Positions 40,992 to 44,244 of a DNA stretch of 64,000 nt are shown piece by piece. Below the pieces are notes generated by a model, which saw only the letters and a list, made by a program, of their open reading frames with translations, made no database searches and was not told where the DNA came from. This DNA is from Roseovarius sp. W115 (GTDB taxonomy: Bacteria > Pseudomonadota > Alphaproteobacteria > Rhodobacterales > Rhodobacteraceae). Location of the stretch: contig NZ_CP146606.1 of NCBI RefSeq assembly GCF_032842945.2, positions 2,980,501 through 3,044,500 on the forward strand, written 5' to 3'. A program made the position numbers and the translations under genes. Within the stretch, counting starts at the first letter, position 1, and every line of letters begins with the position of its first letter.

Positions 40992-42263
40992 TCATGCGGG
41001 CTCTTCCGGTTTTGACGAAGACAACATCACATCGCGCAAGCAAAGCGCGAAAGCGATACAGGCTAATAGCAAAGAAACAACCCGCAAAAGGTCATTTGGG
41101 CCGGTGAGTGATTGTAGCAAAACATATGGCCCGAGCCCCAGCCAAAACGCGATTCCCAAGACCGCGGTTATAGAGTCTTTGTTGAGAACCCCTGCACGAA
41201 GCATAAATAAGGCAGCTGGGGCCATCATTGCAGCTTCGTAGTACCAAAGATAGGGCGAAGACAACGGGATGGCGGTCAACAAAGTCGCCGCACGTAGATC
41301 AAATCCGATTGATACCTTGCGCCACGCCCAAAAAACGGCCGCCGCACAAAATGCAGTGACAACCCACTGCATCGGGAGTGCGGCGTTCTCGGAAAAGCCG
41401 AGTGAAATGAGTGTGGCATAAGGTCCGATCAGAAGGTCGAGTTCCCCAACCGCGCCACGCACAACAGTGCCATGCCGTTCAATAATAGCAAGTAGCTCGG
41501 TCCAGTATTCAGCGCCGTAGATGAGTGTGGGAACTGCAGAGATCAAAATCGTTGTAAGGGTTGCCGCAACGATGGTGCGCCATGCACTACACGCCAGCAG
41601 CGCAAAAGGGATGAGCAATCCAAGTTGGGGCTTCAACGTCAACAAACCAATAAGGACGCCAGCAAGAACGGGACGATCAGCGCGTAACGCAGCAAGTGCG
41701 CCAACAAGTCCCGCACACCACAAAACACTCACTTGACCGTTCAAAAGAGTTGGCAACACCGCCGGCGCCAAAGCGACACAGAGTATGACCTGAACTTTTC
41801 CTGCGCAAAAAGGTTTCACTGCGAACCATAGAGCGCCGACGGAAAGCACTGAAAAAACAGCCCAAGCAGTCGCGAACGGCATCAAGCCGAGAGGCGTGAT
41901 CAAGAGCAGAAACCCCGGCGGATAGAGCCAAGCCATCCACGCTGTGGTGCTTGTTGCGGCAATCTCAATCAACCGCTGCGGATCGAATGCTTCAAGAGGA
42001 ACGCCCTGCAGTGCCAGTTTCGCCGCCGCCCAAAATACAAAAAAGTCGTTTGAAATGGTCTTGAGCTCGGTTGCCTTGATTTCCAAATGGGCCGCAATAA
42101 TCGCTGTTGCACACCATAGGACAGTGACCGCAGCACCAAATATTCCGATTTGCCAGCCGCGTTTTTGATCAAACACGGCCAGCCTTTGATCACCCTGATG
42201 AGCATCGACTGAATAGCTCTGCTTCGTGCCGTCGCGAGCGTTGTTTTGAGGGAGTGATGTCAT
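40992..42263 (-). CDS. GT87/DUF2029 family integral membrane glycosyltransferase
   Basis: A 423-residue polytopic protein of the DUF2029 (GT-C, GT87) family, related to polyprenyl-phosphate-mannose dependent alpha-mannosyltransferases. It has about ten membrane helices. Family patterns are NDFFVFWAAAKLALQG near residue 70, WLYPPGFLLLITPLGLMP, LNGQVSVLWCAGLVGALAAL, and GLLTLKPQLGLLIPFALL. The acceptor is unknown. In the raw sequence it is joined in frame to ilvB because of a one-base deficit; the ATG at 42263, 22 bases after the restored ilvB stop, is the more likely start. It lies unusually between ilvB and ilvN. Confidence 0.82.
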   Translation of the reverse strand: MTSLPQNNARDGTKQSYSVDAHQGDQRLAVFDQKRGWQIGIFGAAVTVLWCATAIIAAHLEIKATELKTISNDFFVFWAAAKLALQGVPLEAFDPQRLIEIAATSTTAWMAWLYPPGFLLLITPLGLMPFATAWAVFSVLSVGALWFAVKPFCAGKVQVILCVALAPAVLPTLLNGQVSVLWCAGLVGALAALRADRPVLAGVLIGLLTLKPQLGLLIPFALLACSAWRTIVAATLTTILISAVPTLIYGAEYWTELLAIIERHGTVVRGAVGELDLLIGPYATLISLGFSENAALPMQWVVTAFCAAAVFWAWRKVSIGFDLRAATLLTAIPLSSPYLWYYEAAMMAPAALFMLRAGVLNKDSITAVLGIAFWLGLGPYVLLQSLTGPNDLLRVVSLLLACIAFALCLRDVMLSSSKPEEPA

Positions 42264-42285
42264 TGCTCTAAACCCACGCCGGAGT

Positions 42286-44042
42286 TTAAACCAGCACCGC
42301 TCCCCCGCATCGATCGCATCCTTGGTCGAGGCGTTCTCGCCCAGAAGCATTTCGTTATGGGCCTTGCCGGACGGGATCATCGGGAAGCAATTTTCGTGCT
42401 TTTCCACCAGACAATCAAAGATCACGGGCCCATCGTGATTGATCATCTCCATGATCGCATCATCAAGATCGGCAGGGTCGTTGCAGATGATCCCCTTGGC
42501 GCCAAACGCCTCAGCCAGTTTGACGAAATCGGGCAAGGCGTCTGACCAGCTGTGCGAATAACGCTCGCCGTGCAGGAGTTCCTGCCATTGCCGCACCATG
42601 CCAAGCCGTTCGTTGTTGAGGATGAACTGCTTAACGGGCAGGCGGTACTGCACCGCGGTGCCCATTTCCTGCATGTTCATCAGCCAGGAGGCTTCTCCGG
42701 CGACGTTGATCACAAGCGCGTCGGGATGGGCGATCTGCACGCCGATGGAGGCGGGGAAGCCATAGCCCATCGTGCCCAAGCCACCCGACGTCATCCAGCG
42801 GTTTGGATCCTCAAAGCCGAGATACTGCGCCGCCCACATCTGATGCTGGCCCACTTCGGTACAGATATACCGGTCATGCTCCTTGGTCAGCGCCTCGAGC
42901 CGATCCAGCGCATATTGCGGTTTGATCGTCTTACCTGCTTGCGTGAAAGCCAGGCAGTTGATCTTTTTCCAGTCATTGATCTGCGCCCACCATTTGCCAA
43001 TGGCGTCGCTGTTCACCTTGCGCCCGCGCTCTGTCCAGACATCTGTGAGCTGTTGCAGCACGGTGGCGACATCGCCCACAATGGGGAAATCGGTGCGGAT
43101 GACCTTGTTGATCGACGAGGGATCAATATCGATATGAGCGCGTTGCGATCCGGGGCTGAACGCATCGAGCCGCCCGGTGATCCGGTCATCAAACCGCGCG
43201 CCGATATTGATCAGTAGATCGCAATCATGCATGGCCATGTTGGCCTCATAAAGACCGTGCATGCCCAGCATCCCGATCCAATTTTTGCCGGACGCCGGGT
43301 AACAGCCCAGACCCATCAGGGTCGAGGTGATCGGAATGCCAGTGGCGTCGACCAGATTGCGCAACAGCTTTGTGGCTTCGTCTCCGGAATTGATCACCCC
43401 GCCGCCCGTGTAGAAGATCGGGCGCTTGGCCGTTTCGAGCGCCTCGACCAGTTCTGCGATGGTCTCGATGTCGCCTTCCATCTGTGGTTGGTAATGCGAT
43501 ACCTTCGTCTTCTCTGGCGGCGTGTAGGTCGCAGAGGCAAACTGCACATCCTTGGGAATGTCCACCAAAACCGGCCCCGGACGACCCGAGGTGGCCACAT
43601 GGAAAGCCTCATGTATGGTTTGCGACAGGCGCTCGGTCTCCTTCACCAGCCAGTTGTGCTTGGTGCAGGGGCGCGTGATGCCAACGGTATCGGCTTCTTG
43701 AAATGCGTCCGAGCCGATCATGAAGGTCGGGACCTGACCAGTGAGAACCACAATCGGAATGGAATCCATCAGCGCATCGGTGATGCCTGTGACCGCATTT
43801 GTGGCCCCGGGGCCAGATGTCACAAGAACAACACCGGGCTTGCCCGTTGAGCGCGCATAGCCTTCGGCGGCATGCACCGCGCCCTGTTCATGGCGCACAA
43901 GAATGTGGCGAATGTCGTTTTGCTGGAAAACCTCGTCATAAATCGGTAGCACGGCACCCCCGGGATATCCGAATACGACGTCCACACCCTGATCCTTCAG
44001 GGCTTGAACCACCATTTTCGCTCCGGTCATCTGACGTGCCAT
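42286..44042 (-). CDS. ilvB: Acetolactate synthase large (catalytic) subunit, one-base frameshift at the 3' end
   Basis: Thiamine-diphosphate enzyme for the first common step of isoleucine/valine synthesis. Catalytic Glu52 in RHEQGAVHAAEG, the FAD-binding middle domain, and the C-terminal TPP region are complete. The TPP GDG motif reads GEA (residues 449-451). The reading frame is normal to near the C terminus (CFPMIPSGKAHNEMLLGE), then lacks one base in a run of five C (42302-42306, plus strand). Restoring it gives an ordinary end AVLV and TAA at 42286-42288, for a protein of 585 residues. A GGAGAG precedes the ATG, and an attenuator precedes the gene. Confidence 0.93.
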
Positions 44043-44084: not shown

Positions 44085-44112
44085 AAAAAAGCCCCCGGTT
44101 TTTTCCGAGGGC
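44085..44112 (-). terminator. Attenuator terminator hairpin before ilvB
   Basis: Read on the minus strand, GCCCTCGG (44105-44112) pairs with CCGGGGGC (44091-44098) around an A6 loop, with one wobble, and is followed by six U (44085-44090). It lies 26 bases downstream of the leader peptide stop codon and 43 bases upstream of the ilvB start codon. Confidence 0.88.
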
Positions 44113-44154
44113 GCATGGGGTACCGTTATGGTGTCCGTTACCGGCCCATGCGCC
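44110..44154 (-). promoter_or_regulatory. Antiterminator stem of the ilv attenuator
   Basis: GGCGCATGGG (44110-44119, plus strand) is perfectly complementary to CCCATGCGCC (44145-44154), a 10-bp stem with a 25-base loop. One arm lies inside the leader peptide reading frame, after the Leu-Val-Val-Ile-Val block; the other overlaps the first 3 bases of the terminator's 5' arm. A ribosome stalled on the Val/Ile codons would leave the upstream arm free and favour this stem. One that reaches the stop codon would cover it and favour termination. Confidence 0.72.
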
Positions 44155-44185
44155 ATTTGCCTACAATTACGACTAGTTCCGCCAT
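44138..44185 (-). CDS. ilv leader peptide (15 residues)
   Basis: A short reading frame encoding MAELVVIVGKWRMGR and ending in TAA. AAAGGAG lies 10 bases before its ATG. The residues Leu-Val-Val-Ile-Val occur in succession, which is what a leader peptide sensing charged branched-chain tRNAs should look like (compare the ivbL, ilvL and leuL principle in enteric bacteria). Followed by the alternative stem and terminator described here. It fits control of ilvB by translation-dependent attenuation. The evidence is direct from sequence; function is inferred. Confidence 0.82.
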   Translation of the reverse strand: MAELVVIVGKWRMGR

Positions 44186-44215
44186 ATTGGCCGACTCCTT
44201 TATACGCGTTCGGGG

Positions 44216-44244
44216 ACACTAGGTTGGGGGTGCGAGGGCGTCAA
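44216..44244 (-). promoter_or_regulatory. Promoter of the ilv leader and ilvB
   Basis: On the minus strand TTGACG (44239-44244) and TAGTGT (44216-44221) are separated by exactly 17 bases. This matches sigma-70-type elements and would start RNA about 24 bases before the leader peptide ATG. Confidence 0.65.

Follow-up and report, generated by a model that had tools for sequence, protein, structure and literature searches.

In enteric attenuators, the control codons lie inside the first arm, a protector hairpin is present, and exclusion between the alternative hairpins is full. Two reports stand closer to the locus described here (papers given by PMC number are cited from excerpts throughout). 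Attenuation of ilvBN in Caulobacter crescentus, with tandem Ile and Val codons, is mentioned in PMC4117421, citing Tarleton, Malakooti and Ely 1994, and an alphaproteobacterial ilvB leader peptide is called previously described in PMC1273637, citing Vitreschak et al. 2004. In alphaproteobacteria, control of ilvB by attenuation is therefore a kind of regulation already known, and the statement of an initial annotation, that such leaders are much less described in this class, is partly right in view of these earlier reports. PMC2965389, PMC2873474 and PMC5107571 gave no match to ilv terms.

The leader upstream of ilvB and its conservation

The window analysed is a stretch of 64,000 nucleotides from Roseovarius sp. 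W115. Upstream of ilvB on its minus strand, the following parts were mapped.

44239..44244, minus strand: -35 element TTGACG, read from the window letters
44216..44221, minus strand: -10 element TAGTGT, with a 17-nt spacer to the -35, read from the window letters
44195..44201, minus strand: ribosome-binding site AAAGGAG of the leader, read from the window letters
44138..44185, minus strand: leader frame MAELVVIVGKWRMGR, from ATG at 44185 to stop TAA; 179 of 208 relatives have a leader of this length, 15 codons
44162..44176, minus strand: control codons CTA GTC GTA ATT GTA; CTA and GTA are heavily over-used in leaders
44145..44154, minus strand: 5' arm of the P1 stem, GGCGCATGGG (leader codons 11-14); both-sided changes, synonymous sites fixed
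44151-44145, minus strand: 5' side of the P1 core, 7 pairs, from the predicted fold
44135..44144, minus strand: P2 hairpin CCG-GUAA-CGG, whose loop contains the stop codon; 178 of 201 relatives have this arrangement, and shuffles average 83
44122..44132, minus strand: P3, a small and weak hairpin ACC-AUAAC-GGU, from the predicted fold of the window
44110..44119, minus strand: 3' arm of the P1 stem, CCCATGCGCC, its last three bases common to the terminator; from letters and alignment
44091..44112, minus strand: terminator hairpin, 8 pairs and a loop of 6; from letters, terminator scan and alignment
44085..44090, minus strand: U-tract of the terminator, six T, read from the window letters
40992..44042, minus strand: ilvB, acetolactate synthase large subunit (synthesis of valine, leucine and isoleucine), the putatively regulated gene, ATG at 44042

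Promoter, leader, stem, terminator and U-tract, as first annotated, were all confirmed letter by letter at these places. The 10-bp stem is present, but it does not merely touch the terminator as had been claimed, since three bases, 44112-44110, are common to both. Between the end of the leader stop and the terminator lie 25 nt. Separately, the ilvB frame of the window continues without a stop into a GT87 domain, giving 1016 aa; seven compared relatives end at 584-585 aa, with ...VLV or ...VMV ends. This ilvB-GT87 fusion looks like a frameshift near the ilvB 3' end, real or due to a sequencing error.

The ilvB start was located in 195 of 198 genomes of the same family. A total of 213 loci were compared, made up of 130 listed places (30 + 100), three further loci and 80 named loci, genome repeats included; within the retained set of 80 named loci, Roseovarius and other Rhodobacteraceae matched the ilvB protein start best. 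An automatic rule recognized both leader and terminator in 208 of the 213 upstream regions, 194 of these 208 being distinct in the compared segment. Many loci are close relatives or one genome represented twice, and the shuffle controls leave this relatedness in. Conservation of the leader frame had been proposed as a check, and the frame is indeed kept.

The full call was absent in five loci (L044, L185, L045, L202 and L224). The L202 sequence was too short, and in L224 leader and terminator are present with a score below the calling threshold. No terminator was called automatically in L044, L185 and L045, the first two of which are probably one genome, a Nereida; these upstream regions have neither the leader nor the terminator. 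In L044 the TTGACG promoter is kept and the leader region is gone, a natural loss of the attenuator. The element is missing from at least two genomes. Two loci, L034 and L116, have the terminator hairpin with a poor U-tract. At the level of the order, R1, a model of the element, matched 139 of 149 genomes at E <=0.001, all rows falling in one family; among the genomes without a match are six of genus g24 (G023, G531, G551, G557, G587, G605). In the window's own genome, R1 gave 88.4 bits at the ilvB leader site and 19.7 at the next match.

Outside the family, the automatic rule called 19 of 106 ilvB loci, and eight of the 19 were accepted by eye (L148, L157, L254, L283, L303, L311, L316, L318). 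The sequences of these eight differ, and the order of parts is kept: Leu/Val/Ile run, P1, stop, 3' arm of P1, terminator. The stop, read by eye, lies in the loop of the inner hairpin in six of them (L148, L157, L254, L311, L316, L318) and not in L303 and L283; bases shared between P1 and terminator were seen in L283 only. In five further loci of other alphaproteobacteria (L138, L140, L154, L268, L319), a terminator-like hairpin stands close after the ilvB promoter, with no evident Leu/Val/Ile leader.

Codon usage in the leaders is strongly biased. CTA makes up 39.7% of 277 leader Leu codons and GTA 51.6% of 560 leader Val codons, versus 2.0% and 4.8% in the ilvB genes of 110 of these loci. High sensitivity is reported to need one particular synonymous codon, and in the Salmonella leu leader replacement of CUA by CUG lowered sensitivity (excerpts of PMC1183508). 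The bias toward rare synonyms is separate evidence that the ribosome is meant to stall at these codons. The codons of the stem arm are, for their part, nearly fixed synonymously: among 167 leaders ending in RMGR, CGC was found in 164, GGC in 150 and CGG in 161. Selection for the peptide as a product was considered as the main cause of the conservation and set aside, because of this synonymous fixation and because divergent members alter the peptide and retain the stem.

Could such an arrangement arise by chance? A combined rule, drawn up after the site had been seen, asked for a ribosome site, a frame of 10-20 codons with four consecutive Leu/Ile/Val, a stem of at least 8 pairs and an adjacent terminator. 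When the window was cut into 2548 overlapping stretches of 300 nt, four satisfied the rule, each of them spanning the ilvB leader site; none of 5000 mononucleotide shuffles did. Generic scans behaved differently: a consensus promoter scan did not return the leader promoter, and a terminator scan gave 5 terminator-like sites in 4 kb, not above the 3.8 of shuffled sequence. Of 208 relatives, however, 183 have the pattern TTGACn-N16-18-TAnnnT upstream of the leader, 176 of them with a spacer of 17; 20 shuffles gave 0.45 on average. The probability that the arrangement is a functionless accident is negligible in our view, as conservation, both-sided changes (see below), codon bias, R1 matches and the shuffles all contradict it, and no point in its favour was found.

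P1, the stop-codon hairpin and the terminator

Alignment A1 contains 145 of the 194 distinct segments: 8 odd ones were dropped, 41 divergent ones were kept, and 104 of the 145 others were taken in order. P1, P2 and the inner terminator are paired in 92.4% of its cells. Changes on both sides of a pair were found in 15 of 18 pairs, compared with a shuffled mean of 4.1 and with 4-11 in slid versions, and in 59 cells, compared with 15.1 shuffled and 12-37 slid. The initial annotation had named compensatory changes in stem and terminator as a check, and these both-sided changes come out in its favour. In P2, every one of the three pairs shows both-sided changes.

The stop codon lies inside P1 in 201 of 204 sequences, the exceptions, as called, being L027, L029 and L095. 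In 178 of the 201 it falls in a hairpin loop; 200 shuffles of the enclosed bases gave 83 on average and 99 at most. P2 reads CCG-GUAA-CGG in 101 sequences and CCG-GUGA-CGG in 20; rare forms keep the hairpin in other letters (GCCC-UGAC-GGGC, UCUC-UAA-GAGA, GGCC-UGA-GGCC, CCGC-UGA-GCGG). Unaided RNAalifold output gives P1 and the terminator and lacks P2. At least three hairpin loops, terminator counted, are present in 96 of 204 predicted folds, P3 being weak. A stop codon in the loop of a small hairpin within P1 looks like a new feature, one that the initial annotation had missed. No protector hairpin of the classical kind, covering the control codons, was identified in a non-exhaustive scan.

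We then considered how P1 and the terminator share their bases. Automatic calls gave an overlap of 1-6 bases in 194 of 208 loci and of zero in 14, some of the latter being poor or doubtful. By equilibrium folding of the free RNA, the P1 core and the full terminator each exceed 50% in 175 of 204 predicted ensembles. All 10 loci without shared bases fall among these 175; the ten include the doubtful L032 and L036, as well as L205, a repeat of L068. In the predicted fold of the window, the 7-pair P1 core closes around P2 and P3 and abuts the complete terminator with no base between. With the 5' side of P1 made unavailable, to mimic a ribosome standing on the stop codon, the outer terminator pairs exceeded 50% in 203 of 204. 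With three bases shared in the window, none in a minority of loci and predicted coexistence in 175 of 204, simple mutual exclusion is doubtful. The initial proposal of an attenuator reading Leu/Val/Ile codons is supported, whereas its 10-bp stem as a classical antiterminator is put in doubt by the predicted coexistence and by the loci with zero overlap. Coexistence of P1 and terminator, as predicted by these models, looks new.

A similar leader before transporter genes

At gathering score, Rfam gave no match of any family, riboswitch and T-box included, in the 64 kb. With E up to 1, two matches appeared around the site: Atu_C8 and, on the opposite strand, a 20-base one that looks like chance. 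The former, RF02502 (Atu_C8, 'Rhizobiales sRNA'), spans the window leader end to end with 20.4 bits against a cut-off of 50; as the cut-off is missed and the layout is alike, we say that the window leader works like Atu_C8, not that it is one. Below cut-off, RF02502 also matches the ilvB leaders of G448 and G385. Its matches in G289 and G471 did not have the appearance of such leaders and were rejected.

Over the cut-off, RF02502 was found in 6 of 36 genomes of the family of G304 (L320, L334, L335, L336, L337, L338). All six loci have a Val-containing leader, P1 with GCGC[AG]TGGG, a stop in the inner hairpin and a terminator, followed by the frame of an MFS transporter; in the five that were measured, the gap from P1 to terminator is 8 nt. 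Judged by this organization of their sequence, the six inspected loci are leader-peptide attenuators of the ilvB-leader layout.

The model R1 led to the same kind of gene. It matched in 60 of 289 genomes of the class, where ten matches of at least 36 bits were taken as real; seven weaker ones were inspected and showed nothing evident, and another weaker match, in G304 at 25.5 bits, is an over-cut-off RF02502 locus. The six matches of at least 36 bits outside the family of the window (L371-L376, from six families) precede an MFS transporter frame. Ten second, weaker matches in Rhodobacterales were also fetched: three (L359-L361) precede a transporter, and the seven others (L362-L368) were set aside. 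Both proteins that were scanned passed TIGR00710 (Bcr/CflA family efflux MFS transporter), the others being named by eye. Ten homologs at E <1e-120 were submitted to the automatic rule, which called a terminator in six and a leader in five of those six, and neither in the remaining four (L399, L403, L405, L406). The transporter homolog of the window's own genome, 47% identical, has no such leader, nor have the 28 same-genus homologs scanned, out of 58 genomes with a match. The presence of the same device before Bcr/CflA-type transporter genes in other alphaproteobacteria looks like a new link. Among the openly licensed papers listed for alphaproteobacterial ilvB attenuators, stop-codon hairpins, RF02502 and transporter attenuators, two concern a transporter attenuator, but none was seen to deal with this link or with the stop-codon hairpin.

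Proposed mechanism and relation to known attenuators

A translatable leader with clustered pathway codons is followed by an intrinsic terminator placed between leader and gene, and one arm of the conserved helix lies where a non-stalled ribosome would sit. The initial claim of an attenuator reading Leu/Val/Ile codons before ilvB is backed by the conserved leader, the codon bias and the both-sided changes, and the element is, on this sequence evidence, very probably a ribosome-mediated transcription attenuator. How it responds to amino acids, and in what order the steps follow, we infer as follows. The signal sensed would be the supply of charged Leu, Val and Ile tRNA. With ample amino acids, the ribosome would reach the stop codon and hold P1 and P2 open, and the terminator would form. 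Under shortage, it would stall on CUA GUC GUA AUU GUA, P1 with P2 would fold downstream of it during the stall, and RNA polymerase would continue into ilvB.

How a folded P1 might prevent termination was approached through spacing. In 21 representatives, the control codons and P1 were picked by eye and shared bases were trimmed. The distance from the last control codon to the P1 core is 1-13 nt and that from P1 to the terminator 0-12 nt, and their sum is 8-15 nt (mean 10.5, sd 2.3). Where one distance is longer, the other tends to be shorter (rho -0.77), and none of 10000 permutations was as tight. Among the 16 representatives in which P1 and terminator share no base, this anticorrelation comes to rho -0.46 (p 0.076), and 218 of 10000 permutations were as tight; with shared bases left untrimmed, the sum is 0-15 and 7 of 10000 were as tight. 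Automatic distances, taken from the last Ile/Leu/Val codon with later ones counted, were 10 nt in 130 of 204 with sums of -7 to 16. They were superseded by the hand-read table, in which the gap of L148 is taken as 10; the sums for L318 and L254 were 4 and 9 automatically, in other registers, versus 13 and 15 by hand.

Excerpts of PMC4824070 put the RNA protected downstream of the ribosomal A site at about 10 nt, and the free RNA that must lie between A site and terminator for the latter to fold at 10-15 nt; they report about 90% termination for a stop at a distance of 28 bp and less than 10% for one at 5 bp. A folded P1 would shorten the path from ribosome to terminator to about this limit. 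The geometry therefore suggests that the stalled ribosome may itself be docked against the terminator by P1, so that ribosome and P1 would hinder the terminator jointly. We favour this reading tentatively, giving it somewhat less than an even chance, since the anticorrelation is weak once only representatives without shared bases are counted, the untrimmed sum spreads over 0-15, the first control codons of the window are up to 22 nt from the terminator by the hand-read count, and a P1 starting 1-5 nt past the last control codon would be partly covered by the ribosome.

Two other readings keep P1 and drop the docking. As a classical antiterminator, P1 would compete with the terminator for the shared GCC by a short branch migration, much as has been proposed for Corynebacterium ilvBNC. 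Such a competition fits the overlap of 1-6 bases called in 194 of 208 loci. The 3' arm of P1 is also transcribed before the terminator, which would give it a kinetic lead, and quick transitions between overlapping hairpins have been proposed for Corynebacterium (excerpts of PMC11857589). Since equilibrium folding is silent on kinetics, and in view of that proposal, competition may be partial. We give this reading a somewhat smaller chance than docking, because coexistence of the full terminator with the P1 core is predicted for 175 of 204 ensembles and no base is shared in 14 of 208 automatic calls (some doubtful), in seven of the eight accepted distant leaders and in the five measured Atu_C8 leaders. 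Alternatively, P1 and the inner hairpins might block the terminator by bulk alone, if a branched structure that ends at the terminator's base or close to it is unable to enter the RNA exit channel of RNA polymerase. P1 does abut the terminator in the predicted fold of the window, and representatives have shared bases or a short gap. We consider this improbable nonetheless, as gaps of up to 12 nt in accepted members leave the terminator room.

A more distant reading is that the leader serves chiefly to make a trans-acting product, either the terminated RNA or the peptide, with control of ilvB secondary. Action in trans is described in the same class for rnTrpL/peTrpL of Sinorhizobium meliloti (excerpts of PMC10117765), and an Rfam family of like layout is filed as an sRNA. 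However, the peptide varies while the stem persists in other letters, and cis control accounts for both the location before ilvB and the codon bias, so that we regard a trans-acting main product as very improbable.

Returning to docking, the observations can be drawn together in one composite, which is possible and rather doubtful as a whole. In this alphaproteobacterial class of attenuator, the stem would act as a folding bridge and not as an antiterminator, holding the stop codon in its inner hairpin, folding only during a stall and docking the ribosome onto the terminator. The gene under control of the cassette would be ilvB in Rhodobacteraceae and, in other orders, a Bcr/CflA-type transporter, and the Rfam 'sRNA' would be its terminated leader. 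If stem and terminator truly coexist, the textbook rule of mutually exclusive hairpins misses a common bacterial group. What is regulated would then be how close the ribosome stands to RNA polymerase, and natural variants are available for testing this. By the RF02502 link, what is filed as an sRNA family would become an attenuator leader. The cassette being shared also draws attention to a transporter with a possible connection to branched-chain amino acids or to a slowing of translation.

Among known systems, the Caulobacter and other alphaproteobacterial ilvB leaders are of the same class and precede the same gene, with an Ile/Val-codon leader and a ribosome-dependent terminator; the likeness follows the descriptions in the citing papers, and these leaders may or may not have the stop-codon hairpin and the coexistence. 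The uORFC-8-2 motif of Rhodobacterales is likewise a proposed case of ribosome-mediated attenuation, but its gene is cysS, and it is likened here by description and not by structure (excerpts of PMC8632094). Corynebacterium ilvBNC, the ilvB-II motif, has a leader of 15-17 codons before ilvB, Leu/Val/Ile codons among them, and overlapping hairpins. It differs in belonging to another phylum and in having three hairpins with an antiantiterminator, and the excerpts of PMC11857589 and PMC10272879 on it make no mention of a stop-codon hairpin. Atu_C8 shares the Val-rich leader, P1, the stop in an inner hairpin and the terminator; it differs in preceding an MFS transporter instead of ilvB, and in having no base shared between P1 and terminator in the five leaders measured. 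With the enteric trp, leu and ilv attenuators, the ilvB leader has in common that the stalled ribosome would decide whether the terminator forms, and that CUA is the preferred Leu control codon (excerpts of PMC1183508). Unlike in those attenuators, its control codons precede the first arm instead of lying inside it, and neither a protector hairpin nor full exclusion was identified in it.
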